From Bacteroidota bacterium (GTDB lineage Bacteria; Bacteroidota; Ignavibacteria; UBA10030; UBA8401), in the NCBI GenBank assembly GCA_030679145.1, contig JAUXTU010000062.1, positions 1 through 63,556 of the forward strand: a stretch of DNA of 63,556 nucleotides, in the 5' to 3' direction. Both the position numbers and the translations under genes were made by a program. The notes under the pieces were generated by a model that was not told the DNA's origin, did no database searches, and saw only the letters and a program-made list of their open reading frames with translations. Below, in pieces: positions 8,586 to 63,556 of the stretch (positions are counted from its first letter, which is position 1; the number at the start of each line of letters is the position of its first letter).

Positions 8586-9812
8586 GTGAAGCAAAAAACT
8601 AAGATTATCATAGCTCATTGTATATTTTTAAGTGTAACGTTTTTTTCTTTCTATCCTACTTTTGAGAACGGCTGGACAGCCTGGGATGACGATGTGTATG
8701 TCATTGATAATCCAGCCGTTCAACATCTTTCCTGCCAGAATGTAAAAGAGGTTTTTTTTACCGCGTATAATGGTTCATATCTTCCATTGACGATGATCTC
8801 CTATATGATAGATTATCAGATTGATGGATTTAACCAAAAATTTTTTCACGCATCAAATCTTTTGTTTCATCTTTGCAACACCATTCTCGTGTTTTGGTTC
8901 ATTTATTTGTTGACGGATAACATTGTTGCGTCATTCATTACAGCACTGCTGTTTGGCATCCATCCAATGCGTGTTGAATCCGTTGCGTGGATCGCTGCGA
9001 GAAAAGATGTTCTATCGATGTTTTTTTTCATGTCTAGCATCATCAATTATGTAATCTACGTTAGAAAACAGCGTGATATATTTTTATTCTTTACATTTAT
9101 TTTCTTTGCCTGTGCGTTATTCTCAAAAGTGATTGTGATAACGATTCCCCTGATCCTATTTTTGATCGATTATTTTCTTGAACGAAAACACTCCAACAAT
9201 ATTGTTGTTGAAAAAATACCCTTCGTTATGATAGCGATTGCATTTTCCGTTATCGGATACTTAGGGCAAAAATTTGTGAATGCTGTTAGACCAACCGTCA
9301 GCATCATAGATTCGTTCATAATTTCATTGCACGGAATTGTGTTCTATATCCAAAAATTCTTACTGCCTATCAATTTATCCAGTCTCTATCCTTATCCGGA
9401 GAAAGAAAATAATTGGCTGCCAATCGAATTCTATCTTTATGCTGTTGTCTGTATTGTTTTGCTAGCCATCGTTGGAAGATATAGGAAAAACAAATCAGTT
9501 ATTTTTGGAGTATTATTCTTTATAATTTCTTTGTTGCCGGTATTACAATTTATTCGATTTAGTAAAATTTTTGCTGCAGATCGATTTACCTATTTTGCAT
9601 ACATCGGATTGTTCTATATCGTTGGCAATCAAATAGGTATATTGTGGGAAACAAAAAAACGCTACATAAAAATAGCTGTCGTGCTTTGTATGATTATTGT
9701 TATTGGAACATTATCCACATTAACGTGGCAGCGAACTACAGTTTGGAAGAATAGTAAGACATTATGGAAAAATGTCTTTGTTCAATATCCCAACGTCTTT
9801 AAAAGTTTATAA
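8586..9812 (+). CDS. Multi-spanning GT-C membrane protein of TMTC-like type, without its TPR tail
   Basis: A 408-residue integral membrane protein with about ten hydrophobic helices. The first loop carries WDDDVYVIDNPAVQ, matching the conserved acidic W-D-D-x-x-Y-I-x-x-N-P motif of bacterial TMTC-like proteins (GT-C superfamily, related to O-mannosyltransferases that use lipid-linked sugar), and HPMRVESVAWIAARKDVL, the second conserved loop motif. Relatives I know of continue into TPR repeats after the segment W-K-N-S-x-x-L-W; here the protein stops a few residues later at FKSL. The start is GTG at 8586; no good Shine-Dalgarno is seen. Its place just upstream of the pilin genes makes pilin or surface-protein glycosylation a possible role (inference). 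Confidence 0.8.
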   Translation: MKQKTKIIIAHCIFLSVTFFSFYPTFENGWTAWDDDVYVIDNPAVQHLSCQNVKEVFFTAYNGSYLPLTMISYMIDYQIDGFNQKFFHASNLLFHLCNTILVFWFIYLLTDNIVASFITALLFGIHPMRVESVAWIAARKDVLSMFFFMSSIINYVIYVRKQRDIFLFFTFIFFACALFSKVIVITIPLILFLIDYFLERKHSNNIVVEKIPFVMIAIAFSVIGYLGQKFVNAVRPTVSIIDSFIISLHGIVFYIQKFLLPINLSSLYPYPEKENNWLPIEFYLYAVVCIVLLAIVGRYRKNKSVIFGVLFFIISLLPVLQFIRFSKIFAADRFTYFAYIGLFYIVGNQIGILWETKKRYIKIAVVLCMIIVIGTLSTLTWQRTTVWKNSKTLWKNVFVQYPNVFKSL

Positions 9813-9861
9813 TACGAATATCAGTTTTTAGCTATTTCAACCTTTATTTTAGTTGCAATTT

Positions 9862-12360
9862 ATGTTTGACCCTTCAATCACTAAAAATCGAGTTGTGTTA
9901 AGTGCAATAATCGTTCTCTTCGTTCTTGCAATGGTATTTTCGTTGAATCAATTCTTTCTCTATACTCCGGATAGTGCCCGATATGTTGCATGGGCTAACT
10001 CGCTTTCGCAGTTCAACGGCTTTACCGACGCTACAGCGCCTGAAGCAAAACGGTATATGGTACACTCACCATTATATTCGTTACTGCTTGCGCCAATTGC
10101 CTTTGTGTTTCCGAACGATATCGTTATGCTCAAGATGTTGAATATTTTGCTCTCTGCGATAACGGTGATGTTCCTGTTTCGCTTGATGCAAAAACAGAAC
10201 GATACAGTTACTCCTTTTTTGGTCGTTGCAATGTTCGTTCTCCATCCAATGGTATATATTTTGTCAACGCAGATTTTGACGGAGATACTATTTGGATGTG
10301 GATTGATCGCACTGTTATATTTTCTTCAAAATGAATTGCAGGAAAATTCATCACGGGTGAACTTTATTCTTACAATGATCTCATTGATGGTATGTGTCTT
10401 TTCCCGTGAGGTTGGTGTTCTATGTGTGCCGGTCATTTTTTTCTTTTATCTCTTTAAGAAAAGCTATACCAAAACAATTCTTGTTTTTTTTATTCCATTG
10501 ATATTATATGGAGTATGGTTCATTCGAAACGAGATTTACTATGCCAATGTTGAACAGACAGAGTTCAAAAATTCATTGGTATTCTTCAGCAATACAATGA
10601 CATCGTCGGATACAAATTTTGGAATTGAGATGCTCTCACGGTTATCTCAGAATGTTCAATATTATCTTAAGGAAGTCACGATCATTGTGTTCACCCCGGT
10701 GTATGATGTGTTTCATAGATCAATGAACATTCCCTGGATGGCATTGGTCGATTCACAATTGCCGGTGATGAACGTATTTGTATCAATTGTTAATAACATC
10801 TATTGGATATTAAGCATCATTAGTATTTGCTTGGTTGTGGCTGGAATGATCATAGAATATCTCTATGAAAAAACGTACTACATCAAAATGGTTTTTTTTG
10901 CATTATATGTTGGTATTGTTTTAATGTATCCTGTGTTGGATTCACGATTTCTCTATCCTATTTATCTCCTTTTTTTATTATGGATTGGTTCAACATTATC
11001 ATTTGTGCGACAATTAAACAATCGTGTCGTTAATTTAGTAATGGTGGGATTTGTTATCGTCCTTATTATCCCAAATGCTGTGTGGACAATAAATTTTATT
11101 GACACACAGCATCGTCTTGTTGGCGATCCGCTTGGAACATTCCTTGAACAAAAGGATTCGACAGATAATGTCAAACATTTTCAGATTGCGTTACCGATGA
11201 CGGGGGAGTGGCTGAATAAACAAAATGATTCATCACTGGTTGTTCTTTCTCCATATAAAGAACTGGCGTTTTATCTTAAGAATAAAAAAGTATTTGTCCT
11301 TAATCGTATTGCACCAACCAGCACATTCAATCAAGTGGTCCAAGATTATAATGTTCATTATGTTGTTGTAACCAAGGATATTTTTGGATGGCGGGATTAC
11401 GAGATCCAGTTCGAATCCAATAAGCGATACGCTTTCCAGCTTGTATTCGATTCCGGATCAATAAATATTTACAAAGTGCTTTCAAAAACTTTGGACAATA
11501 AACATACCGGGAAATATTCACCTTTGATCTCAGAGATGAAGAATAAGAATTACGCTGTTGCCGACTCGTATTTCATAAAGAATAGAAATATTGTTATCTA
11601 TCATGCAGATTTGCTATATCTAAACATTCTTAATAAACATTACCAGGGCCAGTTGGATAGTGTGACAAATCTGTTAGAGCGATTATATGCAAAGCCGCAA
11701 GGACTCGCATATACAAAACTTGCTTCCATTCACCAGACACTAATTTCGCGTAGAGCATTATTGGATAAAACGCCGTTCTCTGATTATCGGTCGAGTATTC
11801 TTATGAATTTAGGTATTACGTATTGGCAGATTGATATGAGAGATATATCCTTAAAATACTATCAGCAATGTATAGAGGAGGACAGTACGGTTGCACTGGC
11901 GTATGTTTTTAGAATAATATTTTCCATTCAAGAAAACGATACTGCATCAGCAATAAAAGTATATCGACGAATGCAATCTGTCTTTCCGACTGCTGAGTTG
12001 ACAAGAAAAATTGACACACTGATGGGATACCAGACTAAGTATCGTAAGGCATCATCTTCAGCATTGAAAGCTGAAGCACTGGAAGGTGTCTTTGATATGT
12101 ATCATTTCCTTGGTTTTACAACAACAGCTATTGAGATCGCCCAAAAGGGTTTGGGGTTTGATCCGGATCGCATTTCCTTATATAAAAAATTAGGAATTTT
12201 GTATGAAAGAGAGTACGAATACTTTCCTGCATTAATGAACCTAAATCAATATGTAATCCGAAATAATAATGATTCGACAGTCAATGCAAGAATCATTGCA
12301 TTAAAGCAAAAACTATATATCAAGGACAATTCCGCTAATATGTCTTTGGATAGCAATTAA
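9862..12360 (+). CDS. GT-C-like membrane glycosyltransferase with TPR domain
   Basis: An 832-residue protein with two halves. Residues 1-400 contain about ten transmembrane helices, and the first periplasmic loop begins TPDSARYVAWA; an acidic residue in this loop is the catalytic feature of PMT/ArnT-type GT-C enzymes. Residues 400-530 form a soluble domain. Residues 560-832 are helical with TPR-like repeats (for example LGITYWQIDMRDISLKYYQQ and LGILYEREYEYFPALMNL). A TTG at 9853 could add three residues; the ATG at 9862 is preferred as the stronger start, but neither has a visible Shine-Dalgarno. It lies 49 bases downstream of another GT-C-like gene and 467 bases upstream of the first pilin gene. 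Donor and acceptor are unknown. Confidence 0.78.
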   Translation: MFDPSITKNRVVLSAIIVLFVLAMVFSLNQFFLYTPDSARYVAWANSLSQFNGFTDATAPEAKRYMVHSPLYSLLLAPIAFVFPNDIVMLKMLNILLSAITVMFLFRLMQKQNDTVTPFLVVAMFVLHPMVYILSTQILTEILFGCGLIALLYFLQNELQENSSRVNFILTMISLMVCVFSREVGVLCVPVIFFFYLFKKSYTKTILVFFIPLILYGVWFIRNEIYYANVEQTEFKNSLVFFSNTMTSSDTNFGIEMLSRLSQNVQYYLKEVTIIVFTPVYDVFHRSMNIPWMALVDSQLPVMNVFVSIVNNIYWILSIISICLVVAGMIIEYLYEKTYYIKMVFFALYVGIVLMYPVLDSRFLYPIYLLFLLWIGSTLSFVRQLNNRVVNLVMVGFVIVLIIPNAVWTINFIDTQHRLVGDPLGTFLEQKDSTDNVKHFQIALPMTGEWLNKQNDSSLVVLSPYKELAFYLKNKKVFVLNRIAPTSTFNQVVQDYNVHYVVVTKDIFGWRDYEIQFESNKRYAFQLVFDSGSINIYKVLSKTLDNKHTGKYSPLISEMKNKNYAVADSYFIKNRNIVIYHADLLYLNILNKHYQGQLDSVTNLLERLYAKPQGLAYTKLASIHQTLISRRALLDKTPFSDYRSSILMNLGITYWQIDMRDISLKYYQQCIEEDSTVALAYVFRIIFSIQENDTASAIKVYRRMQSVFPTAELTRKIDTLMGYQTKYRKASSSALKAEALEGVFDMYHFLGFTTTAIEIAQKGLGFDPDRISLYKKLGILYEREYEYFPALMNLNQYVIRNNNDSTVNARIIALKQKLYIKDNSANMSLDSN

Positions 12361-12827: not shown

Positions 12828-13247
12828 ATGGGACAACAACAATTGCTTCTCATCATTCTTGGTGTAATTATCGTTGGTATCGCGGTTGCCGTTGGTATCA
12901 CAATGTTCCAAGATAATGCTATCAGCGCAAACAAAGACGCTGTAGTTAATGATTTGGTTCAGTTAGCAGCAAAAGCACAGCAGCATTATCGCAAACCAGT
13001 TTCACTTGGTGGTGGTGGAAATAGTTACACCGGTATCGATTCTGCTGGAAGCCTTGTTTCATCCGCTTTCTGGAACAACGATAACGGAAAATATTTTGTC
13101 TCCACAACCGGTACAACATCAATAGTTTTGCGAGGAATCGGAAGAAGCCAAAACGCTGACGGTACCTATCCGGAAATTTTTATGACAGTTACCCCAACCG
13201 GGAATAACTTGGATGTTTGGCTCAATACTTTAACAGCCATTCCATAG
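12828..13247 (+). CDS. Major pilin-like protein 1 with Met-Gly start (no conventional leader)
   Basis: A 139-residue protein. The N-terminus is MGQQQLLLIILGVIIV followed by more hydrophobic residues to about 27, then a polar region with an amphipathic helix (AISANKDAVVNDLVQLAAKAQQHY) and a Gly-rich turn SLGGGGNSYTG before a beta-rich tail. This is the layout of a type IV pilin (N-terminal helix plus small globular head), but the leader before the helix is just Met-Gly, with no Lys/Arg and no Glu at mature position 5. AAAGGG precedes the ATG at good distance. A strong hairpin terminator follows the gene, and downstream genes encode the pilus motor, so this is probably the main pilin subunit. 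Confidence 0.8.
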   Translation: MGQQQLLLIILGVIIVGIAVAVGITMFQDNAISANKDAVVNDLVQLAAKAQQHYRKPVSLGGGGNSYTGIDSAGSLVSSAFWNNDNGKYFVSTTGTTSIVLRGIGRSQNADGTYPEIFMTVTPTGNNLDVWLNTLTAIP

Positions 13248-13264
13248 TTTTAGAGCTCTTTTAT

Positions 13265-13300
13265 GGGGCGTTTCATTTGATTGAAACGCCCCTTCTATCT
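13265..13300 (+). terminator. Rho-independent terminator after pilin 1
   Basis: Perfect 11-base inverted repeat: GGGGCGTTTCA at 13265-13275 and TGAAACGCCCC at 13282-13292, with a six-base loop, followed by a short T-rich stretch (TTCTATCT). It would separate the abundant first pilin transcript from the genes behind it. Confidence 0.85.
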
Positions 13301-13331
13301 AAATCATAAAAATTACAGATAAAAACAAATT

Positions 13332-13745
13332 ATGGGACAGCAACAGCTTTTACTAATTATACTCGGTGTGATAATAGTCGGTATAGCGATTGCTGTTAGT
13401 ATCACTATATTTAGAGATAGTGGAGTTAGTGCAAATCGCGATGCATTGCGTACCGATCTTTTGTTATTAGCTTCAAAAGCGAAACACTACTATAAAAGAC
13501 CGGTCTCTATGGGTGGGGGTGGATACTCTTTTACTGGTTTAACAGCCGATGGAGTAGGAATGTTAAAATTAGTGACTTCACAATTTTCAGATTCAAACGC
13601 TAACGGTAGCTATACGATATATTCGGTTGCACCTAAAGTAATTGTGTTCAGAGGAACAGGTAATATACAATTGGATGATGGTACGCGACCTATAATTGAA
13701 TGTACAGTTACAACAATTGGTCAAACAATGAACACAATCCAATAG
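13332..13745 (+). CDS. Major pilin-like protein 2, paralogue of pilin 1
   Basis: A 137-residue paralogue of the gene at 12828. The first 19 residues (MGQQQLLLIILGVIIVGIA) are identical in the two proteins, and the segment around SxGGGGxSxTG is also conserved, while the C-terminal half differs. At DNA level the identical N-terminus uses many different synonymous codons, so the duplication is old and the helix is under strong selection. As in pilin 1 there is only Met-Gly before the helix. No Shine-Dalgarno is visible (AAAAACAAATT precedes the ATG), unlike pilin 1, which suggests weaker or differently controlled translation. Confidence 0.78.
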   Translation: MGQQQLLLIILGVIIVGIAIAVSITIFRDSGVSANRDALRTDLLLLASKAKHYYKRPVSMGGGGYSFTGLTADGVGMLKLVTSQFSDSNANGSYTIYSVAPKVIVFRGTGNIQLDDGTRPIIECTVTTIGQTMNTIQ

Positions 13746-14054
13746 CACAAAAAGGTAGTTGTTCAGGCATACAAAAGCAGATATCAGGGAAACTGGTACC
13801 TGCTTTTGTGTTTATGTCCCTAATTTTCTCTAATCATACATTAGTTGATTTTGAGTTGATGCGATTGTATCTTTAAGCAGTCCTTACCATAAACCTTCGA
13901 AAGGTTTATGTAATAATGAATCTGACGTTTTACGCTTTTCCACTGCTAACTAAATAGTTGCGCCTGAGTATATCCTTGCAGAGGGTATAACTGATTTGTA
14001 AAATTTAGACTTTTTAAGGTTCGACTAGAAATGAACGAAAGGAAATGATTCACC
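13746..14054. other. Intergenic region between pilin 2 and pilC
   Basis: This 309-base gap has no gene. It contains the terminator hairpin at 13771-13809, a second perfect hairpin at 13888-13910 (CATAAACCTT / AAGGTTTATG with loop CGA), and a weaker stem-loop at 13969-13989 (nine pairs including two G-T). The latter two lie in the likely leader of the pilC-pilB transcript and could act as attenuator or RNA-stability elements. AAAGGA precedes the pilC start. Confidence 0.5.
13771..13812 (+). terminator. Hairpin terminator after pilin 2
   Basis: Perfect 10-base inverted repeat, ACAAAAGCAG at 13771-13780 and CTGCTTTTGT at 13800-13809, with a 19-base loop. The following GTTTATG is only moderately T-rich, so termination may be partial. 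Confidence 0.6.
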
Positions 14055-15425
14055 ATGCCAGAATTTCGAATTGATGGAGTTTCACTGACGGGTAAAGCCG
14101 TTCAAGGGGTGATCAGTGTTGAGAGTATGAAACATGCCAAAGAACGTGCAAAACAAATGGCGCGTGATCGTAAGTTCAAAATTTCAGGCATCCATGCTCG
14201 ATCAACATTTATTTACCGTGTAAAAAAAGGAACTGAAAAACCAGTTGATGGTGAGCAGAAAGCATTTACAAAACAGGAAGTTATAGATGCACTTAGCAAA
14301 ATGGGATACACGGTAGTGTATGTCCGAAAGCGTTTATTTGAAACCGGAGGTAAGGTTCCTGAAATTGAAGTTGTTTCATTTGTTAGAGTTAGTGCAGATT
14401 TGATCAGACAGAAATTGCCGTTCAATGATATGATGGCGATGCTTATCAATGACATTCAGAATAAAAACCTTCGAGAAGCAATCCGCGATATCAACCAGGA
14501 ATTAAAACAAGGTAAAGATAGCGAACGTGCATTTCAAAAACATGAAAAAGCACTTGGAAAATTTGCAGCGCATATGTTAGGCTTGGCTTCAAAGAGCGGA
14601 AATATGGGTGAGATATTTGAAAGCACAGCAAAATTCTTGGAGCGTAATGCTCAATTTAAGAAAGACCTGAAGAGCGCACTTATCATGCCGGTTGTTACCT
14701 TGGTTATTTTGTTTGGTGCGGTTGGGTATTATGTTGCGTATATCTTTCCTGCAACAGCAAAACTATTCCAAAAATTTAAAATGGAACTGCCGCCAATGAC
14801 AACGGCAACATTGAAGCTCAGCGATTTTATTACGACAAATATCGTTTGGATTATGTTGATCATCATTATTCCTGTCGTGGCTTTTGCACGATTTGCTACA
14901 ACGGTGCGAGGAAGATATCTTATCGATAAATATTTGTGGAAAGTTCCTGCAATCGGAGATCTGATGCATAAAATGAGCATTGAAATTTTTTGCAGAGTGT
15001 TCTATGCATTGTATTCAGGCTCCGGCGAAAATATTGAAGTAATTAAAATGGCAGCAGAAGCGTGTGGTAATAAATATATGGAAGCGCAAATAAAAACCAT
15101 CGCATTGCCGATGATGGTTGAAAAAGGATCTGGTATTACTGAAGCATTTGAAGCGACCGGAGTATTTACGAAAACAGCATTATCCCGATTTCATTCCGGT
15201 GCCGAAACAGGCACTGTAAAGAATACGGCATTACAACTTGCCGAGTACTATGAAAAAGAGACCGGTTACCGGATGCGCAATGCTATCGACATGATTCAAT
15301 TGGTTATTTCAATGATCATCATGGTTGTGTTGACAGGTTTGACGCTTGTTTCATCTGAGACTGCTACCATTAAACCCAAAGCACCAGGGAGTGGTTGGCT
15401 GCATTTCTTTAATTTTTATTTGTAA
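14055..15425 (+). CDS. pilC: Type IV pilus/T2SS inner-membrane platform protein, PilC/GspF family
   Basis: A 456-residue protein of the GspF/PilC family, the inner-membrane platform that couples the assembly ATPase to pilus growth. It contains two T2SF repeats: residues about 115-235 (with LGLASKSGNMGEIFESTAKFL and the helix LIMPVVTLVILFGAVGYYVAYIFP) and about 305-430 (with FCRVFYALYSGSGENIEVIKMA, SRFHSGAETGTVKNTALQLA and a final transmembrane helix). The family's first cytoplasmic motif appears at 1-50 and perhaps again at 52-95, giving a longer N-terminus than usual. It is followed after 22 bases by the assembly ATPase gene. Confidence 0.95.
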   Translation: MPEFRIDGVSLTGKAVQGVISVESMKHAKERAKQMARDRKFKISGIHARSTFIYRVKKGTEKPVDGEQKAFTKQEVIDALSKMGYTVVYVRKRLFETGGKVPEIEVVSFVRVSADLIRQKLPFNDMMAMLINDIQNKNLREAIRDINQELKQGKDSERAFQKHEKALGKFAAHMLGLASKSGNMGEIFESTAKFLERNAQFKKDLKSALIMPVVTLVILFGAVGYYVAYIFPATAKLFQKFKMELPPMTTATLKLSDFITTNIVWIMLIIIIPVVAFARFATTVRGRYLIDKYLWKVPAIGDLMHKMSIEIFCRVFYALYSGSGENIEVIKMAAEACGNKYMEAQIKTIALPMMVEKGSGITEAFEATGVFTKTALSRFHSGAETGTVKNTALQLAEYYEKETGYRMRNAIDMIQLVISMIIMVVLTGLTLVSSETATIKPKAPGSGWLHFFNFYL

Positions 15426-15447
15426 GTTCAAGACAAAGGAATAGCCT

Positions 15448-17235
15448 ATGGCAGATATCGATATTACTGATAAGATCGGTTATACCCTTCTCAAAAAAGG
15501 TATCATCGATTTTGAAACATTAGAAAAAGCCTTGCGCATCAAAGAAACTGAAACGGCAAAAAAAGAACGTCGGAATCTTGGGCAAATACTTGTTTCTGAA
15601 TTCAGTGCAGATCATGATGCAGTGTTTCGGGAAGTTGCAAATCTTTATGCATTCCGTGAGATATATATTGCCGATGAAAATATTGAAAAGGGGAGAATCG
15701 ATTTTATTAAAAAATTTGTCGATGCCCTTTCTGATGAGAATAAAAAAATAATGATCCAAACTAAAATGCTCCCGTTGAAGTTTGACGAGAAACAAGGGGA
15801 TAAGTTGATCATTATTTCTGCAGATCCTACTGATAGAAATATTCCTTTGATCTCCCGTAATTTCAACGTGAAGAAATACGAAGTTACGTATTGCCGTCTT
15901 AAAGATATTCAAAATTTAACTGAACAGGTGATTCCACCGCAGAACGAATTTTTAAAAATGCTTGAAGATAATCACATCAGTGTTGAGACAGGTGATGAAG
16001 AGGCCAATGTTGATGAAGATGCGTTAAATGCTGAGATCAATAAAAGTGCGCTTGCAAATTTATTTGAAGGATGTTTGGTAGAAGCTGTTCGTTCCGGAGT
16101 CAGCGACGTTCATATCGTGGCGTCAGAGGGTAGAAAGACATACTTTTTAATGCGTGTTGACGGAAATCTTCAGGTATGGCATTGTCAAGAAAATACGATG
16201 CCCGAAGCAGTGATGGCTGTTGTGAAAGATCGGACAAAGAATGTTGATCGGTTTGAACGTGAAATGTCACAAGATGGTTTCATTCAGCGTGTGGTGGATG
16301 GACACCAATTACGTTTCCGTGTTTCGATTATGCCGATTGTTACGACGGAATTCAAAAATAAATTTGAAAGTGTCGTTATTCGTGTTTTGGATGATCGTAA
16401 AGTCATCACGGATCTTAATAAACTTGGTCTTCAGGGTCCCGCAAAAGCACTATTCTATAAGGCGATTAACAAGCCTCAGGGTATAATCATTTTGACAGGT
16501 CCTACGGGTTCCGGTAAATCAACAACGCTTATCGCAGCCTTGTATCAAGTGATCGATCCGACAGTGAATGTTCTGACGATTGAAGAACCGGTAGAATATA
16601 TTATTAAGGGTGCACGTCAGCTCAAGATCGGTCCAAAGATGTCATTCGAACAATCAATTCGGGGTATTCTTCGTCATGATCCTGATATTGTTCTTGTTGG
16701 TGAAATGCGCGACAAGATCACTGCTGAAACTGCTATCAAACTTGCCAATACCGGTCACTTGGTATTTTCAACGCTCCATACGAACGATGCTCCAAGCGCT
16801 GTTGCCCGTTTATATAAGATGGGGATTGAACCATTCCTGATTGCGTATGCAATTAACATTATAGTCGCACAACGTTTAATTCGAACTCTCTGTAAAATTT
16901 GTAAAACTCCCATTGATGACAGCGAAAAAGCTGATCTGCTGAAATTCGGATTTAATGAAGAAGAATTGAAAACCCATACATTCTATAAAGCTGTCGGTTG
17001 TGATAAATGCAACGGCGGTTATAAAGGAAGAGCGGCGATTCACGAAGCATTATTCTTTACGAAAGCGATTAAAAATATTGTGTTGAATGCCGGCGATAAA
17101 GTTGATGAGAACTCAATTCGAGATCAAGCATCCAAGGACGGAATGTGGACGCTGCGTAGATCTGGTATGGAACGAATGATGGAGGGCGCTACATCATTAG
17201 AAGAGGTCATCTCATCCACAGTTGAGGATGATTAG
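15448..17235 (+). CDS. pilB: Type IV pilus assembly ATPase, PilB/GspE family
   Basis: A 595-residue hexameric-type secretion ATPase that should power pilin polymerisation at the inner membrane. It has an N-terminal MshEN-like domain (1-160, starting ITDKIGYTLLKKGIID), then the core with Walker A GPTGSGKST at 351-359, Asp-box and Walker B (IVLVGEMRD, about 412-420), His-box (STLHTNDAPSA), and the four-cysteine zinc site typical of GspE/PilB (Cys482, Cys485, Cys518, Cys521). The reading frame ends 161 bases before the first minor pilin gene. It is distinct from the PilT-type ATPase at 20364, which lacks the cysteines. Confidence 0.96.
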   Translation: MADIDITDKIGYTLLKKGIIDFETLEKALRIKETETAKKERRNLGQILVSEFSADHDAVFREVANLYAFREIYIADENIEKGRIDFIKKFVDALSDENKKIMIQTKMLPLKFDEKQGDKLIIISADPTDRNIPLISRNFNVKKYEVTYCRLKDIQNLTEQVIPPQNEFLKMLEDNHISVETGDEEANVDEDALNAEINKSALANLFEGCLVEAVRSGVSDVHIVASEGRKTYFLMRVDGNLQVWHCQENTMPEAVMAVVKDRTKNVDRFEREMSQDGFIQRVVDGHQLRFRVSIMPIVTTEFKNKFESVVIRVLDDRKVITDLNKLGLQGPAKALFYKAINKPQGIIILTGPTGSGKSTTLIAALYQVIDPTVNVLTIEEPVEYIIKGARQLKIGPKMSFEQSIRGILRHDPDIVLVGEMRDKITAETAIKLANTGHLVFSTLHTNDAPSAVARLYKMGIEPFLIAYAINIIVAQRLIRTLCKICKTPIDDSEKADLLKFGFNEEELKTHTFYKAVGCDKCNGGYKGRAAIHEALFFTKAIKNIVLNAGDKVDENSIRDQASKDGMWTLRRSGMERMMEGATSLEEVISSTVEDD

Positions 17236-17337
17236 GTCTTTGAAGAAAAGACAAATCTCAAATTGGGAATCACTGAAAATAGTTTACTGGCTTGTTGATT
17301 TTATTGTCCTGTTCGTCATATTTTGCAGTGTGTCTTC

Positions 17338-17385
17338 CGACACACATTGTCACTCATCTAAAATGTAATATTACAATGTAATCAT
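17338..17385. promoter_or_regulatory. Hairpin and 12-base palindrome ahead of the minor pilin genes
   Basis: Between pilB and the first minor pilin gene there is a perfect hairpin, GTGTGTC / GACACAC with loop TTCC (17338-17355), and then a perfect palindrome TGTAATATTACA (17374-17385) ending 11 bases before the ATG. The hairpin has no T-run, so it is not a clear terminator. The palindrome could be an operator or may simply reflect AT-richness. Confidence 0.3.
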
Positions 17386-17396
17386 CTGGGAAAAAA

Positions 17397-17987
17397 ATGG
17401 GACTAGGACAAACATTATTAACAATTATGGCTTTGATGCTGATGGGGAGATTGATTCTCAATTCGAACACTCTGACCCTTGATACCGGTATGATGAAAGA
17501 TCTTGCTGAATACAGAATTGCCGGGACATCGTTCGGAACTTCACGATTGGAAAAAATCGAAGGGAAAAGATTTGATGAAAGTTCTGTAGACTCTATCGAA
17601 GTTTATACAACGTCGGAGTTGTCCACTTATGCAAATTTTGGTCCCGGAAGAGATGCCGGAGAAAGTTCAACTAATGAAGCTACATGGGACGATGTGGATG
17701 ATTACCATACTGTTGCACATTATGATACCATTAATTGGATACCATACAAGGATTCTGTTATAGTTGAGTATGATACGTTATATTATAATGCTGGACCTCC
17801 CGTTGTAGCGGAAGTTCGTAAAACGACTAACAAATCATTTACTAAAAGGATAATTGTTCGAGTAACGGGTCCTTATTTAATAGATTATACCTCTTTGATT
17901 GATGCTGATGGTGATGGAGAAGTGGATGATCCTAAACCTGATACCTTACGATTTGAAAGAATTATCGGCTATTGGTATATGCGTTGA
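17397..17987 (+). CDS. Minor pilin, PilV/GspI-like, with Met-Gly start
   Basis: A 196-residue minor-pilin-like protein. It begins MGLGQTLLTIMALMLMG, a hydrophobic helix directly after Met-Gly. The next part, LAEYRIAGTSFGTSRLEKIEGKRFDE, fits the pattern of PilV/GspI-type proteins of FCB bacteria, where an alpha-helix is followed by a K/R-x-F-D-E motif, and the later WDDVDDYHT also matches the F-D-D-V-D-D-Y-H motif I associate with that group. The C-terminal half is beta-rich. Such proteins prime assembly or form the tip complex with PilW- and PilX-like partners, which follow here. No strong Shine-Dalgarno is visible. Confidence 0.72.
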   Translation: MGLGQTLLTIMALMLMGRLILNSNTLTLDTGMMKDLAEYRIAGTSFGTSRLEKIEGKRFDESSVDSIEVYTTSELSTYANFGPGRDAGESSTNEATWDDVDDYHTVAHYDTINWIPYKDSVIVEYDTLYYNAGPPVVAEVRKTTNKSFTKRIIVRVTGPYLIDYTSLIDADGDGEVDDPKPDTLRFERIIGYWYMR

Positions 17988-18041
17988 TCACAAACGGAAA
18001 TTCATCGCTATATGATTTTTTAATGATTACGGTAAGAACAA

Positions 18042-18776
18042 ATGGGCTCTCAAGTTGTATTAGATTTAATCAGTGCAACAATCATCTTTGGTTCGCTATT
18101 AGTAATTGGTTTACGCATGAATGCTTTTACCAGTGATAATATGCAGCGCATAAGAGGGGACGTTATTGTTCAACAAAACCTAGTAGCAGTGATTTCGCTC
18201 GTTGAATATGATTTCCGCAAAATTGGTTATGTGGCAAATTCAGATAGTACAATAGATTCGGAACATGGGGCTATTATTGAAGCCGATTCCAATCATATAA
18301 GATTTATTACAGACTATCCACCCTTTACTACTAGTGGTGGGCGAACAGATACTATTGAATATAAATTTGGTTTGACAAATGATGATTTAGTATCTTGGAC
18401 TCCAAACCCAAACGACCGGTATCTTTATAGAAATTTTGATAAGGCAGAAATGGATAATCCCGTAAAGATATCCTTAGGGGTTACTCGTTTTAAATTAACA
18501 TATTACGATTTTCAAGATAGTAATATTACTCCGAATGAAAGACCAACCCCATCTTCGCCTCCCAATCCAGTTTTTAATGGAAATTCGGTTTACGCCACAA
18601 ATCCGACAACTCAGATCAATACCATACAGATTGATATCGAAATTCAAAGCTGGGTAAAAGTTGAAGTAGATACTGCACTGTATGGATTAGATACACAGAG
18701 TGATACGCTTACTTCATATCAGACAGCGTACTGGAGACAAATACGACTTGCTGCAAAAAATTTGAGAAATAGATAG
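18042..18776 (+). CDS. Minor pilin, PilW/GspJ-like, with Met-Gly start
   Basis: A 244-residue protein starting MGSQVVLDLISATIIFGS, again Met-Gly then helix; Asp8 is the only acidic residue near the position of the usual Glu5. The features IRGDVIVQQNLVAVISLVEYDFRKIGY (long N-terminal helix ending in D-F-R-x-I-G-Y), DTIEYKFG...YLYRNFD and GVTRFKLTYYDFQD follow the order seen in PilW/GspJ proteins (D-T-I-x-Y ... L-x-R ... V-x-x-F-x-L-x-Y-x-D). It should be a tip or priming subunit. It starts 54 bases after the PilV-like gene and is followed after 18 bases by the PilX-like gene. Confidence 0.75.
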   Translation: MGSQVVLDLISATIIFGSLLVIGLRMNAFTSDNMQRIRGDVIVQQNLVAVISLVEYDFRKIGYVANSDSTIDSEHGAIIEADSNHIRFITDYPPFTTSGGRTDTIEYKFGLTNDDLVSWTPNPNDRYLYRNFDKAEMDNPVKISLGVTRFKLTYYDFQDSNITPNERPTPSSPPNPVFNGNSVYATNPTTQINTIQIDIEIQSWVKVEVDTALYGLDTQSDTLTSYQTAYWRQIRLAAKNLRNR

Positions 18777-18794
18777 AAGATACGAGGTGAAATT

Positions 18795-20174
18795 ATGGGA
18801 CGTACCGCAATTTTTATGGTTATTGGTTTTAGTATGATTTCATTATACTTTGGTTCTCAATCGTATGATGTAAAATTTGAAACAATGAACAATGCAATGA
18901 CATATTATGAGAATGTTCAACGAACCAGTATTGGTAGTGCAGGTGCTAATTTTGCGATGACAAAACTTACCTCGGACACAAGTTGGAAAGGTCCCGGAAT
19001 CAATGTTAAGTATCCGTTTGCTGGAGGAACGTTTGCAATTGAAGTAAGAGATTCAATTTATGCACTTACTCAATATAAGGTAGTTTATGTCGAAACCATC
19101 TATCAAGGTTCAAACCTTGACGGTTCTGGTACAAATATAACCGGGTATACCAAAATTGTTTTAAGTCCTAGCAGTTTTTCAAAGTTTGGTTATTTTTCTG
19201 CCAATGATCCATCTACAATAACTTGGCAGACAGGTGATACAGTATTTGGTCCATTTCACTCAAATACATATATCTATATAAGCGCGACTAATTCCATTGA
19301 TCAACCAGTTTTCATGGATAAAGCAACATCACGAAACGGTCTGAATCCATCAACAGGCTCTCGACCAGTTTTCAAAAAAGGTCATTATTTCCCTGTAAAT
19401 ATTACCATGCCTTCTTTTGCTTCTGCTTTTCAGGCAATAAAAAATGCTGCAAAAGACAATGGACATTATGATTCTGCAGGAAGAAGAAATAGTCCAAAAT
19501 GGTTTAATGGTACTCCCTGGTGGAAAAGTTCTCCGGGAGCGTCAGTGTTAGATGGAAATTATGATACTGTATTTTTGAACTTTCGGTCTAATGGTTATTT
19601 AAGAATCGGATTGTCTAGTACATATGCATCTCGATCTGACTCTTTAAAAGATACTTTATTATCCACTTTTGCTCCCAATGGTGTTATGTTTTTTGAACGA
19701 ATGATTGTAAAAGTACAAGGGCGGGTTAATGGAAAATATACTATAGCAGCTGCAAAGGTTGGTACTGTAGGCGGTACTATAATTATTGACAGCAGTATTG
19801 CATATGTTGATACAACTACATTAGGTGTAAGCACATCAGATGATATGCTTGGATTAGTTGCGTCTGATAGTATCACTATTGCATATAATGCAAATAACAA
19901 TCCATTGAGCGGTGTTCAAAGAGGAGTAGATGTTCATGCTGTTGTGTTTTCATTATACAATGGATTTGGAGCAGCAAATTATTCTATTCGTCCAAACAAT
20001 GGACAAATCAGACTTTTTGGGGGAATTTGCCAAGCTAAGAGGCAACCTGTTGGCACTACTGCTCCATCAGGGTTTCATAAAAGCTATCATCATGATCCTC
20101 GGTTATTGAGAAGAATAGTGCCACCGCTTTTCCCAAAAACCGGTGTTTTTGAGATTCTTTCATGGTTTGAATAA
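18795..20174 (+). CDS. Large minor pilin, PilX/GspK-like (DUF4900-type), with Met-Gly start
   Basis: A 459-residue protein beginning MGRTAIFMVIGFSMISLYFG. A helix with N-x-x-R-x-x-x-G-S-A-G-A-N-F-A-M-T follows, as in PilX/GspK. At residues 146-157 TGDTVFGPFHSN matches the W-x-T-G-D-x-V-x-G-P-x-H-x-N signature I associate with DUF4900-like pilus proteins in Chlorobi, Thermotogae and relatives, followed by a segment on furnishing marks (QPVFMDKATS). The rest is beta-rich. A gene of the same type begins at 63222. The start has GAGGTG upstream. It is the last of three minor pilins in tandem and ends 189 bases before pilT. Confidence 0.78.
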   Translation: MGRTAIFMVIGFSMISLYFGSQSYDVKFETMNNAMTYYENVQRTSIGSAGANFAMTKLTSDTSWKGPGINVKYPFAGGTFAIEVRDSIYALTQYKVVYVETIYQGSNLDGSGTNITGYTKIVLSPSSFSKFGYFSANDPSTITWQTGDTVFGPFHSNTYIYISATNSIDQPVFMDKATSRNGLNPSTGSRPVFKKGHYFPVNITMPSFASAFQAIKNAAKDNGHYDSAGRRNSPKWFNGTPWWKSSPGASVLDGNYDTVFLNFRSNGYLRIGLSSTYASRSDSLKDTLLSTFAPNGVMFFERMIVKVQGRVNGKYTIAAAKVGTVGGTIIIDSSIAYVDTTTLGVSTSDDMLGLVASDSITIAYNANNNPLSGVQRGVDVHAVVFSLYNGFGAANYSIRPNNGQIRLFGGICQAKRQPVGTTAPSGFHKSYHHDPRLLRRIVPPLFPKTGVFEILSWFE

Positions 20175-20363: not shown

Positions 20364-21623
20364 ATGCAAGTTGTACCAACGGCGTCATTGATGATTGATG
20401 CGGAAATAGTCGAGAATGCGAAAACTATTCTCAGTCAGGTAATTACACAAATTCCACAATCTACACAGGGTTTAGAGCGTCAAATTTTTATCGGTGATTT
20501 TGTTGAGAAGCTTCCGCTTGAAAATCGCCAGATGTTGAAAAGTTTTGTGGAATGTTTATTATTGCGAATGTCTCTGATTAATGCCTCCGATATTGATTTT
20601 GGCGGTTTTGGTGGACATCAGAAAGTATGGTACAGAATTTTTGGCGCAAAGAAACCGGACCCAACGATGGATCCACTTTCTATTGATGAAACAAATATTC
20701 TTATACAATCATTGATATCTTCTCGTCAGCGTCAATATCTCTATGAAATGAAAAATCTTGATTTTTCATATATGATCATGGATGGTGACAAGATGCATCG
20801 TTTTCGCGCAGATGCATATATGGATCTCGATCAGTTAGCTTTGAATATGCGTGCGATTAATGCAACAGTGCGACCTTACAAAACTCTTGAACTTCATCCC
20901 AATGTGACAAAGATTGTAAGTTTAGCACATACGAAAGAGGGTTTGATTCTTATTACGGGAATCACCGGGTCTGGTAAAAGTACAACACTTGATGCAATGA
21001 TTGATTTAAATAATCACACTGTTGACGGTCATATTGTTGTGGTTGCATCACCGATTGAGTATGTTCACAAATCGGATCGATGTATTGTACGACATCGCGA
21101 AGTAGGAAGAGATGTATTATCATTTAAAGATGGTGCAATCCAAGCATTACGTCAAGATCCCGATATTATTATGATCGGTGAGATGCGGGATCCTGAAACA
21201 ATTATGACAGGTCTTGAAATTACAGACAGTGGACACAAAGTATTTTCCACATTGCACACTGCTTCTGCAGTTGAAAGTATTGATCGTATCATCGGAGAGG
21301 TACCACACGTTGAACAAGATCGTGTTAGAATGAGATTCGCAGATGTATGTAAGATAGTCTTATCGCAAAAACTTATACCATCGTTGGATGGAAAACGTGT
21401 TGCGGCTCGTGAAATTATGATCATGAATCCTTCGGTTCGTGCCGCAATAAAAAATGGAAACACCGGTGAAATTTATCAGATGATCCAGGAGTCCAGTGAA
21501 ATTGGAATGCAGACGATGGAGCAGGATTTAAAAAGATTGTATCAACAAAAAAAGATATCGCTTGAGAGTGCAATGAATTACGCGAACAATAAGAAACGAA
21601 TGCAACAAATCATTAATACATAA
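20364..21623 (+). CDS. pilT: Pilus retraction ATPase, PilT family
   Basis: A 419-residue secretion ATPase of the PilT/PilU branch. Walker A GITGSGKST is at residues 199-207, the Asp box lies around VVVASPIEYVH, Walker B is DIIMIGEMRDPET, and the His box is STLHTASA. Near the C-terminus AIKNGNTGEIYQMIQ followed by GMQTMEQDLKRLY corresponds to the AIRNLIRE and GMxTMDQxL motifs that distinguish PilT from PilB; the zinc cysteines are absent. The first 100 residues are longer than in typical PilT (about 345 residues in total) and do not match anything I know. It should depolymerise the pilus, implying that the system retracts. It ends six bases before the pilMN gene. Confidence 0.93.
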   Translation: MQVVPTASLMIDAEIVENAKTILSQVITQIPQSTQGLERQIFIGDFVEKLPLENRQMLKSFVECLLLRMSLINASDIDFGGFGGHQKVWYRIFGAKKPDPTMDPLSIDETNILIQSLISSRQRQYLYEMKNLDFSYMIMDGDKMHRFRADAYMDLDQLALNMRAINATVRPYKTLELHPNVTKIVSLAHTKEGLILITGITGSGKSTTLDAMIDLNNHTVDGHIVVVASPIEYVHKSDRCIVRHREVGRDVLSFKDGAIQALRQDPDIIMIGEMRDPETIMTGLEITDSGHKVFSTLHTASAVESIDRIIGEVPHVEQDRVRMRFADVCKIVLSQKLIPSLDGKRVAAREIMIMNPSVRAAIKNGNTGEIYQMIQESSEIGMQTMEQDLKRLYQQKKISLESAMNYANNKKRMQQIINT

Positions 21624-21629
21624 AAACTC

Positions 21630-23186
21630 ATGCCGTATAAAAAAGGTGAAGGTAAAACAGTTCTCAGTATGTTCATTGACGGACTTGATGTAAAGTTCGT
21701 TCATCTTTCCATGAAGAATAAGCGAATATATTTACATGATGTTTCCACTGTTAATCTTGTAAAACGATTGGAAGAGCGTGCTGGTGGAGAAAACAGCGGA
21801 GGTGCGGAAAATTTTGAGATACTTGATGAAACAGGTGCACCAAAAGATGAGTTTTCAGAAGGAACCGGGGGTGCTTCGAATGGTGAAGTAATGATCGGAT
21901 TACTTTCGGAATACCCAACAGCAGCATACGAATTTGTTTATTCTATTTCCGAACCAAGCGTATACTATCAACAATTTGAAAACAATTTTGGCCTTTCAGG
22001 CATGAAGTTGAAGCGAAAACTTGTTGATGAACTTTCCGCTACTCGTTCTGTAAAACCAACAATAGACTCAATCTCGTATATACCGGCGGCAGAAGGACAA
22101 ATTTTGGCGGTAATACGCGAAGGGGGTCTTGGGTTGCTAGATGTGATTTCAAGTGTCCAGGATTTTCTTGACAAAAGAGTCCCACGGGTTCAATTTATTG
22201 AAACGTCTGATATTTCTTTGATGAATTTGGTTCGAGCGAACTACGAGCTGGGAGAATCAGAGATATCAATCATTGTTTATGTCGGAAGTGAATTTAGCAG
22301 GCTCATCTTCATGAAGGGTCAGTATTTTTTCCACTTTGCACCTGTCATTAGTGAAGGACGGCTTACACCAAATATAGAGAATACAATTTATTCACGTATT
22401 CTTTTGGAGCAGGATAGTGCGGGAATAACACGAGTTGATAGAATATTTTTAGCAGGTGAAGCAAATAAGATTGACTTGAAACAATTTCTTGCACCTCAGT
22501 TTGCCGAAGCTCCAATAGAGTATGTTATCGCACAGACACTTGATACAACTGAGTTTGCAGACAATCCGGAAGCGATTGTTTCTGAATATGCAATTCCAAT
22601 CTCGTCTGCAATGAGAGCATTGGAACTGAAAAGTTCACTATACTACCATGTTGATCTTTTACCAGTTAGTTTTCGTGAAGGACAAAAGATATTCAAGCTT
22701 GCGTGGCATGGCTATCTGCTTCTGGTATTAATTTTTATTACAACATTGTTCTTTACTTCACGATACGCAGAATTAAATCAAGAAGTACTGCGATCTCGTT
22801 CTGATTTGATCAAGAAACAGGAACAGCTTGCAGAGAATCAACGCTTACAATCTATCCTGGATAGTTTAACGAGACAGAATTCGCAATTTGAATCCGCTTT
22901 AAAAGTATATGACCAAGTTATTCCAAATTACAACCGATGGAGTAAGGTATTCAATCATTTGACTAATAGTGTTGATGGTTTGAATTCTGTTTGGATCAAG
23001 ACAATTGCTGCACGAGGAGATTCATCAATAGAGTTAATGGGTTATACATTATATCGACAGCGGATCCCACGGATAGCAAATATGTTTGAGAACGCAACGC
23101 TTCAGACAGTTGATATGGATAAGATTAGAGAGAAAGAAGTATATAAATTTGTTGTACTAATTAATAGTTTCGATGCAAATAAATAG
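21630..23186 (+). CDS. PilM-PilN fusion protein of the pilus alignment complex
   Basis: A 518-residue protein. Residues about 10-340 have an actin-like PilM pattern: an early strand SMFIDGLDVKFVHL, then IIVYVGSEFSRLIFMKGQ, and RVDRIFLAGEANKIDL (adenosine-motif-like). A transmembrane helix lies near 354-381 and is preceded by VDLLPVSFREG, which resembles the N-L-L-P start of PilN. A periplasmic coiled coil (390-425) and a small ferredoxin-like domain follow, as in PilN. In most bacteria PilM and PilN are separate proteins; one chain resembles the architecture of GspL in T2SS. It should link the cytoplasmic motor to the periplasm. Confidence 0.8.
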   Translation: MPYKKGEGKTVLSMFIDGLDVKFVHLSMKNKRIYLHDVSTVNLVKRLEERAGGENSGGAENFEILDETGAPKDEFSEGTGGASNGEVMIGLLSEYPTAAYEFVYSISEPSVYYQQFENNFGLSGMKLKRKLVDELSATRSVKPTIDSISYIPAAEGQILAVIREGGLGLLDVISSVQDFLDKRVPRVQFIETSDISLMNLVRANYELGESEISIIVYVGSEFSRLIFMKGQYFFHFAPVISEGRLTPNIENTIYSRILLEQDSAGITRVDRIFLAGEANKIDLKQFLAPQFAEAPIEYVIAQTLDTTEFADNPEAIVSEYAIPISSAMRALELKSSLYYHVDLLPVSFREGQKIFKLAWHGYLLLVLIFITTLFFTSRYAELNQEVLRSRSDLIKKQEQLAENQRLQSILDSLTRQNSQFESALKVYDQVIPNYNRWSKVFNHLTNSVDGLNSVWIKTIAARGDSSIELMGYTLYRQRIPRIANMFENATLQTVDMDKIREKEVYKFVVLINSFDANK

Positions 23187-23193
23187 GTAGGCT

Positions 23194-24084
23194 GTGTCAT
23201 TTAAAATTAGAAATAGTATCGCGCTTGCTGTTATTGTGTTCATCGTATCGATTGTTGGATCGTACGTAACTTTTTTCTATCAACCCAAAAAAGTAGATCA
23301 AAATATCAAAGAGACAAAGAAGATTGAAGCGCAGCTGCAGGATAATGCGCAACAATTGAGTGCAATCGATCAGAATCAACTGAAGTTGAGAGAAACACTG
23401 CATCGATGGAATAACCGTATCAAAGAAATTTCAGAATCAGATGTTTCATCGCAAACATACGGTTATCTCAGTGAGATCATCGATGAAAGCGGAGCTCAGC
23501 AATTGAACATGAACTTAAGTTTAAGCGGAACGACGAACAGGGGTGTTGTCGGATACAATTCCTATAAAATTTCAGGCGAATCCGAGTTCCCGAATATTTT
23601 TCGGTTTTTGTGGCTTCTTGAAAACGGAAGAAAACTTTATAAAGTGTCAAAAATATCAATTCAAAGCGCCGAACTTGCCAATGATTCTTTGGAATACCCT
23701 AACATCCAATTACGATATGACATGGAAGTAGATGCATATTTTACAACAGAGAGTACATTGGGTATGCCTGTGATGAGACCGGATTCAACGCCACAACCGA
23801 TTACATCAAACCCATTCTTCCCAAACATCCTTGCGCAGACACCGGCGAATGTACGTAAGTTAATTAATGTTGATAAGATTTCCATTAAAGCTACCGCAAA
23901 CGGTAAAGCATTAATCATGAATGATGATGGAAAGATAATAACACTGCAAATTGGGGACGAAGTTTATCTTGGGAAAGTTTCTAACGTTTTTCCTAAGGAT
24001 GGTGTTGTTGAATTTACATTGAACGATGGCGGAATTGTAGTGGTAAAAAGAAAAAAAATCGAATTTGAGAATGATAACCAATAA
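23194..24084 (+). CDS. PilO-like protein with a PilP/GspC-like C-terminal domain
   Basis: A 296-residue protein starting at GTG 23194 after AGGTAGG. It has one transmembrane helix (about 8-29), a coiled coil (35-75) and a PilO-type periplasmic domain (about 85-180), then a linker rich in Pro/Ser/Thr. The last 70 residues (ISIKATANGKALIM ... LQIGDEVYLGKVSNVFP ... VVVKRKKIEF) are a small beta domain with the order seen in PilP or the GspC HR domain, the part that touches the secretin. So PilO and PilP functions are probably in one chain. It lies between the PilMN fusion and the secretin gene with gaps of 7 and 12 bases. Confidence 0.75.
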   Translation: MSFKIRNSIALAVIVFIVSIVGSYVTFFYQPKKVDQNIKETKKIEAQLQDNAQQLSAIDQNQLKLRETLHRWNNRIKEISESDVSSQTYGYLSEIIDESGAQQLNMNLSLSGTTNRGVVGYNSYKISGESEFPNIFRFLWLLENGRKLYKVSKISIQSAELANDSLEYPNIQLRYDMEVDAYFTTESTLGMPVMRPDSTPQPITSNPFFPNILAQTPANVRKLINVDKISIKATANGKALIMNDDGKIITLQIGDEVYLGKVSNVFPKDGVVEFTLNDGGIVVVKRKKIEFENDNQ

Positions 24085-24096
24085 GGATAGAACGCA

Positions 24097-25350
24097 ATGA
24101 AACGAATAATATTTCTTTTAATGATTGTCTTTTTATTAGGACATATTACTTCCGCCCAGAATAATCGTGAGAAACGATTGATGTTGAACGAATATGTTTC
24201 TCCTGAAGAATTGGTCTCAATGTCAAAATCATTACAATTTGACAAGGCGGTGTTGCTGTTCAGTGATTTCAGCAAGAAGTACATGAATAAAATTATTGTT
24301 GATGTCAGCAATAATAAAAAACCAATCGGTGTTGATATTGAGAATATGTATTGGTATCAAGCATTTGAAAATGTATTGCGTACCAATGGATTATGGTATG
24401 ATGAACGGGAAGAATTTTTTTATGTCTATTCAACTGCTGACTCGCAGAAAACAATAATCACAAGTTCAGGAGCGGTTATCAGCGCTGGATCGACTTCAAC
24501 TGCTAAAGTTGACACGACAGGGAGAATGTTATTACACCAGCGTGATATAAGAATTTCGACCGTGTTTTTTGATGTTAACGTTACAAAATCTTTGGAAACT
24601 GGAATAAATTGGAATTATTCCGGTTCTGATACAACAAAGAGTAACTTTGGTGCACAGTTCTCAAGTGGAATTAAAGCTCCAACTGCAACATCGACCACCC
24701 CAGGGTTCTTTGTAAATTTTGCTCCTAAATTATCATTCGCGAATCTATCCGCACTTGCTTCATTTTTTTCCCAATATAATCTTGGTGATATTCTTTCGGG
24801 ACCGTCGTTAGTGGTATCTTCAGGGAAACAAGGGAAAATTCAGGTAGGCAAGGATTTTTTTATTACGCAAAGAGACTTCGCAGGTAATTCTATCCTAACG
24901 CCTGTCTCATCGGGAATAATTATTGATGTAAAGCCAACGGTGTATGAGGAGAATGGGATCAAGTTTATTAATTTGGAAATAAAAGCTGAGAATAGTTCTG
25001 CAAATTCTGATCTTAGCATAAATAAATCTACAGCAGCAACTTTTTCTGTCCTTTATGATGGTGAAGAAACTGTTATTGGCGGTCTTTATAAAAACAATCA
25101 AACAACAGTAAGATCAGGAATACCTTTTCTTAAAGACTTGCCATGGTGGGTTTTTGGACTGCGTTATATATTTGGATTTGAGTCTGAAAACACTACTACC
25201 ACAGAGCTTATTATTCTTATAAAAGCTGATATTATCCCGACCATTGAAGAACGTGTTGCTACTGCCGCCCAGAAAAAAGGAATTAATCTAATTGAACAAG
25301 CTCGTCAGCATAATGCCAGTGAGATTGAACGATTAAATCCAAAGAAATAG
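24097..25350 (+). CDS. Outer-membrane secretin, PilQ/GspD family (short)
   Basis: A 417-residue exported protein: signal peptide (1-20), a short N-terminal domain with a STN-like strand pattern (about 60-125), a Ser/Thr-rich linker, and the secretin domain (about 150-400). Family marks are GPSLVVSSGKQGKIQVGKDFFI, SGIIIDVKPTVYEENGIKFINLEI, and EETVIGGLYKNNQ followed by GIPFLKDLPWW and TTTELIILIKADII. It is much shorter than typical PilQ (600-700 residues); most N-domains and the AMIN domains are missing. It should form the outer-membrane pore of the system. A strong terminator follows. Confidence 0.92.
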   Translation: MKRIIFLLMIVFLLGHITSAQNNREKRLMLNEYVSPEELVSMSKSLQFDKAVLLFSDFSKKYMNKIIVDVSNNKKPIGVDIENMYWYQAFENVLRTNGLWYDEREEFFYVYSTADSQKTIITSSGAVISAGSTSTAKVDTTGRMLLHQRDIRISTVFFDVNVTKSLETGINWNYSGSDTTKSNFGAQFSSGIKAPTATSTTPGFFVNFAPKLSFANLSALASFFSQYNLGDILSGPSLVVSSGKQGKIQVGKDFFITQRDFAGNSILTPVSSGIIIDVKPTVYEENGIKFINLEIKAENSSANSDLSINKSTAATFSVLYDGEETVIGGLYKNNQTTVRSGIPFLKDLPWWVFGLRYIFGFESENTTTTELIILIKADIIPTIEERVATAAQKKGINLIEQARQHNASEIERLNPKK

Positions 25351-62595: not shown

Positions 62596-62903
62596 AGATT
62601 AAAGATACGAAAAAAGAGAACGTCTTGCCACAGATTATATAATTATCGAGTGCTGAAATGAGACGAAGGTTGGGATTTTTTAGGGTTTTGTATTTTAGAA
62701 AACATCTTATCAAAATTTCTTCAAGCGTTGAGAGATTATCCAAAAAAGTAAGCATCTTCTTTTCGCCAGAATCTTTGGTTTCATTTATCCTGTTAGAATA
62801 ATTTTCGATTACCAATCCTGATATTGAATTATGTACGTAAAATTATTATATTGCATACGCAATTGCAGAAAACTAAGTCAAGAAGATTAACAAATTTCAT
62901 AAG
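62596..62903. other. Intergenic region between nusB and tRNA-Ser
   Basis: This 308-base gap has no supported gene. A minus-strand frame of 89 codons (62546-62815) overlaps nusB and has no features of a real gene. The AT-rich part from about 62835 should contain the tRNA promoter, but no clear -35/-10 pair is visible. Promoters of nusB must lie near 62600-62650. Confidence 0.5.
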
Positions 62904-63221: not shown

Positions 63222-63556
63222 ATGGGCACGTCAAAAATAGCAATGCTTTCCGGAGTTTACCTGATTTTAGGTATGTATACGGTTAGTTTTACCACCACCG
63301 ATAGAGAGAATAACTCTATTGCGGAATCCGTAGCAAACTCAATTCAGGCCGAACAGATCGCCCGCACAGGCATTTCACTTGCTATGACAAAGATGGGTGG
63401 AACATACTCATCGTCAACCCGTGAATATTCAAATCAGAATGCTTCAGTAATGAATGGTTCAGTAGTCTTTTCAGCGTCGCAATCAGGTTTACCTGCTTCA
63501 CAATCTCAGGTTACTTCAACTGCTACATTCGCAGGAAAAACAGTCACGATTAAAGC
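63222..63556 (+). CDS. Minor pilin (PilX-like) with Met-Gly start, N-terminal part
   Basis: An open frame runs from ATG 63222 to the window end (111 codons seen). The product begins MGTSKIAMLSGVYLILGMY, i.e. Met-Gly then a hydrophobic helix, and continues ANSIQAEQIARTGISLAMTKM, which matches the same region of the PilX-like protein at 18795 (NVQRTSIGSAGANFAMTKL). It is thus probably the first gene of a second pilus-type locus. No strong Shine-Dalgarno is seen. Confidence 0.72.
   Translation, partial: MGTSKIAMLSGVYLILGMYTVSFTTTDRENNSIAESVANSIQAEQIARTGISLAMTKMGGTYSSSTREYSNQNASVMNGSVVFSASQSGLPASQSQVTSTATFAGKTVTIK

Follow-up and report, generated by a model that had tools for sequence, protein, structure and literature searches.

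Pilin-like genes and their start sites

The window, i.e., the whole stretch of DNA analysed here (63,556 nucleotides from contig JAUXTU010000062.1 of a Bacteroidota bacterium of the Ignavibacteria, assembly GCA_030679145.1), contained a cluster of type IV pilus genes, among them two major pilins (12828 and 13332) and three minor pilin-like genes, m1 (17397), m2 (18042) and m3 (18795); genes are named by their first coordinate. Each of these five open reading frames (ORFs) began with ATG-GGN, was hydrophobic immediately afterwards and was preceded within a few codons by an in-frame stop. A preliminary description, made from the sequence alone, had reported five pilin-like proteins starting with Met-Gly and passing straight into a helix; the ORFs bore this out and a sixth was identified at 63222. 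None of the 39 other genes in the window started with Met-Gly (Fisher p = 9e-7, a somewhat optimistic value as two of the five pilins are paralogous; the 39 genes were counted by hand). No window pilin possessed a class III signal peptide, that is, a hydrophilic leader of 6–26 residues ending in Gly. The N-methylation motif GF[ST]L.E had no PF07963 match in the genome from which the window comes (the own genome), and the window pilins had no Pfam match. Just upstream of the sixth ORF was a tRNA-Ser (62903–62986), and the contig ended inside the ORF.

Homologues of the major pilins were gathered in two sets, one from a genome scan (79 loci) and the other from hidden Markov model (HMM) hits in whole genomes. 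The scan was biased, having MGQQQLLL among its patterns, and N-terminal conservation was therefore re-tested on 50 HMM hits. The Met-Gly start was present in all 50, from a search that was not keyed on MG and that extended to approximately 32% identity; in the wider set it was present in 161 of 163 sequences, the remaining two beginning Met-Ala. Gly2 was encoded by all four Gly codons; therefore, it is the protein that is conserved here, and not the DNA.

Conventional leaders in frame upstream of the called starts were sought in 162 distinct major-pilin loci. No other in-frame start occurred within 45 codons upstream in 152 of these, and in 137 there was an in-frame stop within 10 codons; the remaining 10 loci did have an upstream in-frame start, in each case without a Shine-Dalgarno (SD) motif. 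The called start was preceded by an SD-like motif in 132 loci (compared with 21% at random positions). A conventional leader upstream of the major pilins is excluded, and upstream starts with normal leaders were rejected through this survey.

Multiple major-pilin paralogues within one genome were common. The own genome had further MGQQQ pilins outside the cluster (L147:7684–8439, C61, and L146:6420–6872, C18), one of which was lengthened to 252 residues. Two MGQQQ-type sequences had ATA in the start-codon position (L082:10001 and L110:2025). MGQQQ pilins were also observed in metagenome-assembled genomes of unrelated phyla (L070 and L113, labelled Patescibacteria/Kerfeldbacteria, and L110, Actinomycetota), which are probably misbinned contigs.

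N-terminal residues and predicted fold

Among homologues of m2, residue 2 was Ser, Thr, Asn, Gln or His besides Gly, while it was Asn, Thr, Ser, Ala or Val among those of m1, the 26 homologues of which started MG, MN, MT, MS, MA or MV, followed by GQ or E. Some m3 homologues started Met-Phe-Gly, and two major-pilin paralogues had MANKE where others have MGQQQ. Gly2 had been taken in the preliminary description for the remnant of a processing site, an idea that is not supported, given these substitutions in the minor-pilin homologues and the two Met-Ala paralogues. As it appears from the alignments, the pattern is unlike a conserved -1 site and fits a small residue permitting methionine aminopeptidase, though not everywhere; loss of the whole leader, Gly(-1) included, would be the simpler account.

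Residue 5 (counting Met as 1) was Gln in 160 of 163 major pilins and Glu in three; in m1 it was mostly Gln, with Glu in five homologues. The sole invariant column among 25 homologues of m2 was an acidic residue, at position 6 or, in most Ignavibacteria, at position 8 (Asp8 in the window). This Asp was aligned with the Glu of the LLELLL motif in TTHA1219, which was the best profile hit, albeit a weak one (E = 0.33). Hence, the earlier claim that Glu is missing from mature position 5 held for the major pilins and 17397, but 18042 retains its invariant Asp; similarly, the reported lack of positive charge before the helix applied to 12828, 13332, 17397 and 18042, and failed for 18795, which has Arg at residue 3. 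A polar residue near the helix start is retained, close to the Glu5 position of mature pilins, and Gln or an acidic residue at positions 5–6 probably serves as a stand-in for Glu5.

The AlphaFold2 (AF2) model of major pilin 12828 (pLDDT 92.7) consisted of a 54-residue helix (residues 2–55) and then a small beta sheet. The top 13 rows of the VIA-align comparison were all type IV pilins (Z = 4.0–9.8), including PilV (5v23, Z = 9.8), PilA4 (6xxd, 9.6), PilE (4noa, 8.8), PAK pilin (1oqw, 7.7) and gonococcal pilin (1ay2, 7.5). Foldseek alone also placed PilV and PAK pilin at the top, with a best E of 0.4. A PDB sequence search with a single major pilin produced no match, and a PDB profile search produced only weak matches to geopilin and PilA5 (E = 0.07–1.5). 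For the m2 model (pLDDT 79), the top nine VIA rows were all GspJ-type pseudopilins or TTHA1219 (Z = 10.3–11.5), the next row having a value of 3.3. Residue 2 of the 12828 model overlay mature residue 1 of 6xxd, 1ay2 and 5vxx, while for 1oqw it was residue 4; the offset to classical pilins was one residue by these three structures and three by the fourth and by the weak profile alignments.

Peptidase genes and assembly machinery

The own genome, a 123-contig draft, is 100% complete. A profile search of it for pilD/gspO found no A24 prepilin peptidase, where the same search was positive in 12 of 14 controls; a protein query from a member of the family returned nothing at E <= 10, although this query had no positive control. 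The archaeal peptidase domains PF06847 (Arc_PepC) and PF06819 (Arc_PepC_II) were likewise absent from the own genome, the PF06819 result being a weak negative because few controls were positive. The genome did encode a methionine aminopeptidase, for which Met preceding Gly is a substrate.

Homologues of major pilin 1 were present in 52 of 60 relatives and A24 in five. Across 296 genomes of the phylum, the pilin was found in 102, A24 in 38 and both in 11 (an overlap counted by hand from two lists), such that 91 of 102 pilin-bearing genomes were without A24. These included approximately ten single-contig genomes (among them G205, G213, G268, G314, G368, G158, G194, G271 and G116), and an A24 gene on a missing contig was rejected on this ground. 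Two Kryptonia genomes also had no A24. Where A24 did occur in relatives, it usually accompanied a second system with classical pilins: N-methyl pilins were present in four of five A24-positive relatives but in only 2 of 55 others (p = 1.5e-4). In G016, G025, G028 and G045 the classical pilin was approximately 1 kb from the A24 gene, and had its own leader, an FS[LM]TEL start and its own PilB; in G016 the MGQQQ cluster was on a different contig (L150). Classical N_methyl pilin-like genes were also observed in two genomes without detected A24 (G031, L148 around 7518–7955, and G052, L149). The absence of A24 from the own genome and from the 91 others, with methionine aminopeptidase encoded, supported the suggestion of a variant pilus class of the Fibrobacteres-Chlorobi-Bacteroidetes (FCB) group needing no PilD.

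The genome paper for Melioribacter roseus lists pilA and pilD as 'not found' (PMC3534657). In the single contig of this species (G268), two MGQQQ pilins were followed by pilC, pilB, pilT and PilM-, PilO- and PilQ-like genes, and the profile search for A24 had no match. Judging by these sequences, the pilA reported missing is present and leaderless. Unlike the window, the M. roseus locus (L174) had no m1–m3 homologues between pilB and pilT; they are elsewhere, very divergent or absent.

The cluster combined PilB and PilC, PilT, an outer-membrane secretin and the pilin fold (12828 and 18042), which are features of the type IV filament superfamily and of type IVa pili (Table 1). When ORFs around the pilins were clustered (L037–L115), the conserved sense families were pilus genes and a response-regulator family, while the remaining large clusters looked like antisense ORFs of pilus genes. 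No other gene family was conserved in the pilin clusters as a candidate for a dedicated peptidase; therefore, any substitute peptidase would be encoded elsewhere. Directly 3' of the secretin gene, two large proteins were encoded in tandem that look secreted and contain Big_1/Invasin_D3 Ig-like repeats (25438–29061 and 29165–31771); they are possibly pilus-linked adhesins. Just 5' of the pilins (8586–12360) were two polytopic membrane proteins; pilin glycosylation is possible because one of these, 9853, matches the PMT_2 mannosyltransferase (1e-5).

Table 1. Pilin-like and assembly genes identified in the window.
Feature	Position	Strand	Evidence
Major leaderless pilin 1, 139 residues, MGQQQLLLIILG...	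12828..13247	+	ORF
Major leaderless pilin 2, 137 residues	13332..13745	+	ORF; 55% identity to 12828 paralogue
PilC/GspF inner-membrane platform	14055..15425	+	Pfam T2SSF 1.7e-29; NCBIfam GspF/PilC 1e-41, under equivalog cut-off
PilB assembly ATPase	15448..17235	+	Pfam T2SSE 4.7e-95; TIGR02538 PilB 2.7e-121, under equivalog cut-off
Minor pilin-like m1, MGLGQTLL...	17397..17987	+	ORF; 26 homologues from neighbouring clusters
Minor pilin m2, GspJ/PilW type, MGSQVVLD...	18042..18776	+	AF2 model, VIA matches, invariant Asp8
Minor pilin-like m3, MGRTAIFM...	18795..20174	+	ORF; homologue starts MG[RK] or MFG[RK]
PilT retraction ATPase	20364..21623	+	TIGR01420 pilT_fam 1.2e-97, over its cut-off
PilM(N)-like assembly protein	21630..23186	+	NCBIfam Amuc_1101 PilM-like 3.6e-6, weak; kept in 39 clusters
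Putative PilO/PilP-like assembly protein	23194..24084	+	Position; weak GspM match 0.014; kept in 35 clusters
PilQ/GspD secretin	24097..25350	+	Pfam Secretin 1.2e-26; GspD 1.7e-22; PilQ 1.1e-20
Sixth MG pilin-like ORF, MGTSKIAMLSGVYLILGMYTV..., truncated by window end	63222..63556	+	jackhmmer homologue of 18795, E = 2e-16

Proposed maturation, alternatives and known systems

These patterns were interpreted as a type IVa-like pilus, the subunits of which are probably encoded without a class III leader and matured without prepilin peptidase. It is likely, to the same degree, that this is a widespread class of type IV filament (in Ignavibacteria, Kryptonia, KSB1, Calditrichota and further lineages within their shared GTDB phylum), the pilins of which are synthesised as mature proteins, and that it has dispensed with prepilin peptidase and N-methylation, which are considered universal in the superfamily. 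Translation would begin at, or no more than three residues from, the first residue of a PilD-cleaved classical pilin, and the hydrophobic helix would be a signal anchor that enters the inner membrane. The only maturation step, if there is one, would be cleavage of the initiator Met by methionine aminopeptidase in those proteins that have Gly, Ala, Ser or Thr as residue 2; neither prepilin peptidase nor PilD N-methylation would be involved. PilC and PilB would draw the subunits into a filament, which PilT would retract and the secretin would let through.

Several points weigh against this interpretation. Minor pilins starting MNTG-, MFG-, MH- and MQ- are expected to retain Met, such that trimming would not be uniform, and a neutral N-terminus would present little topological signal for N-in insertion. 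Positions can be matched to those of classical pilins only to within 1–3 residues. Finally, among KSB1/Calditrichota-type and other distant lineages, A24 was present in 17 of 29 genomes, several times beside classical pilins; in the KSB1/Calditrichota-type genomes it could act on the pilins considered here.

The main rival, although it is unlikely, is a non-A24 peptidase of a new type that cuts a very short leader before the conserved Gln (MG/QQQ, MGLG/QTLL and MANTG/QMLL, the slash marking the cut), possibly giving pyroglutamate. Archaeal EppA cuts between Gly and Gln, and Gly-Gln was conserved near the start in two pilin families, the major pilins and m1; however, it was not found in m2 or m3, and the two MANKE paralogues depart from it. 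A lactam-modified N-terminus has been reported for a Methanococcus pilin (PMC4471445), but the own genome had neither archaeal peptidase domain and the clusters had no conserved gene of unassigned family. It is less probable again, and doubtful, that the proteins build nothing more than a short pseudopilus or scaffold in the inner membrane or periplasm, the leader being dispensable since full assembly is not needed. The resemblance of m2 to GspJ of type II secretion agrees with this, as does the M. roseus genome paper, which mentions no pilus (PMC3534657); yet, the major pilin resembles pilus-forming pilins, PilT is present and exceeds its model cut-off, and it is common for a genome to have several major-pilin paralogues. 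A conventional prepilin peptidase that accepts a two-residue leader and was overlooked, through an assembly gap or extreme divergence, is nearly refuted: the draft state of the own genome and the profile-based search leave some room for it, but against this are the many pilin-bearing genomes without A24, single contigs included, the positive controls, the detection of A24 in relatives with classical pilins and the empty protein query. That the starts are wrongly placed, with a normal leader further upstream, has next to no probability, the 10 loci with upstream starts being far outweighed by the remainder of the survey.

Cleavage by prepilin peptidase is regarded as a step common to type IV pili, type II secretion and archaella. 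A review treats a leader of 6–26 residues as defining, and names the Nanoarchaeota alone as being without the peptidase (PMC4471445). A literature search for leaderless type IV pilins or MGQQQ found nothing relevant, most subscription papers being outside its coverage; the pilD suppressors of Synechocystis were rejected as a precedent, as they concern prepilin toxicity (PMC8546353). If the interpretation is true, a pilus without cleavage would reveal, through the lack of a leader, what the leader does (insertion, and a block on premature assembly), and would account for a genome survey of these bacteria in which the machinery was reported but pilA and pilD were not. The pilins of these lineages would then escape class III signal predictors and the Pfam N_methyl model. 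For M. roseus, which is in culture, a membrane proteome is already public (PXD003662, PMC5492636).

Compared with known systems, the cluster was similar to the type II secretion pseudopilus (GspG-K) in that m2 matches GspJ/XcpW/EpsJ and the platform and secretin are related, but it differed in having a PilT family ATPase and in lacking both a leader and GspO. Gly-Gln near the start is found in class III archaeal pilins, as in the major pilins and m1 here. Glu5 is often absent from archaeal pilins, including those processed by EppA (PMC4471445); by contrast, the window pilin fold matches bacterial type IVa pilins, there is no leader and no archaeal peptidase domain was found. Pili of the mannose-sensitive haemagglutinin (MSHA) type are comparable in that their loci contain no prepilin peptidase gene; however, MSH genomes encode the peptidase elsewhere (PMC6668835) and their prepilins have leaders, neither of which applies to the window genome and pilins. 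Relative to the type IVa pilus, the window pilins have neither a class III leader nor Gly(-1), Glu5 is mostly missing, and the genome is without A24; what is shared is the pilin fold, PilB, PilT, PilC, secretin and a PilM-like protein, all occurring together.

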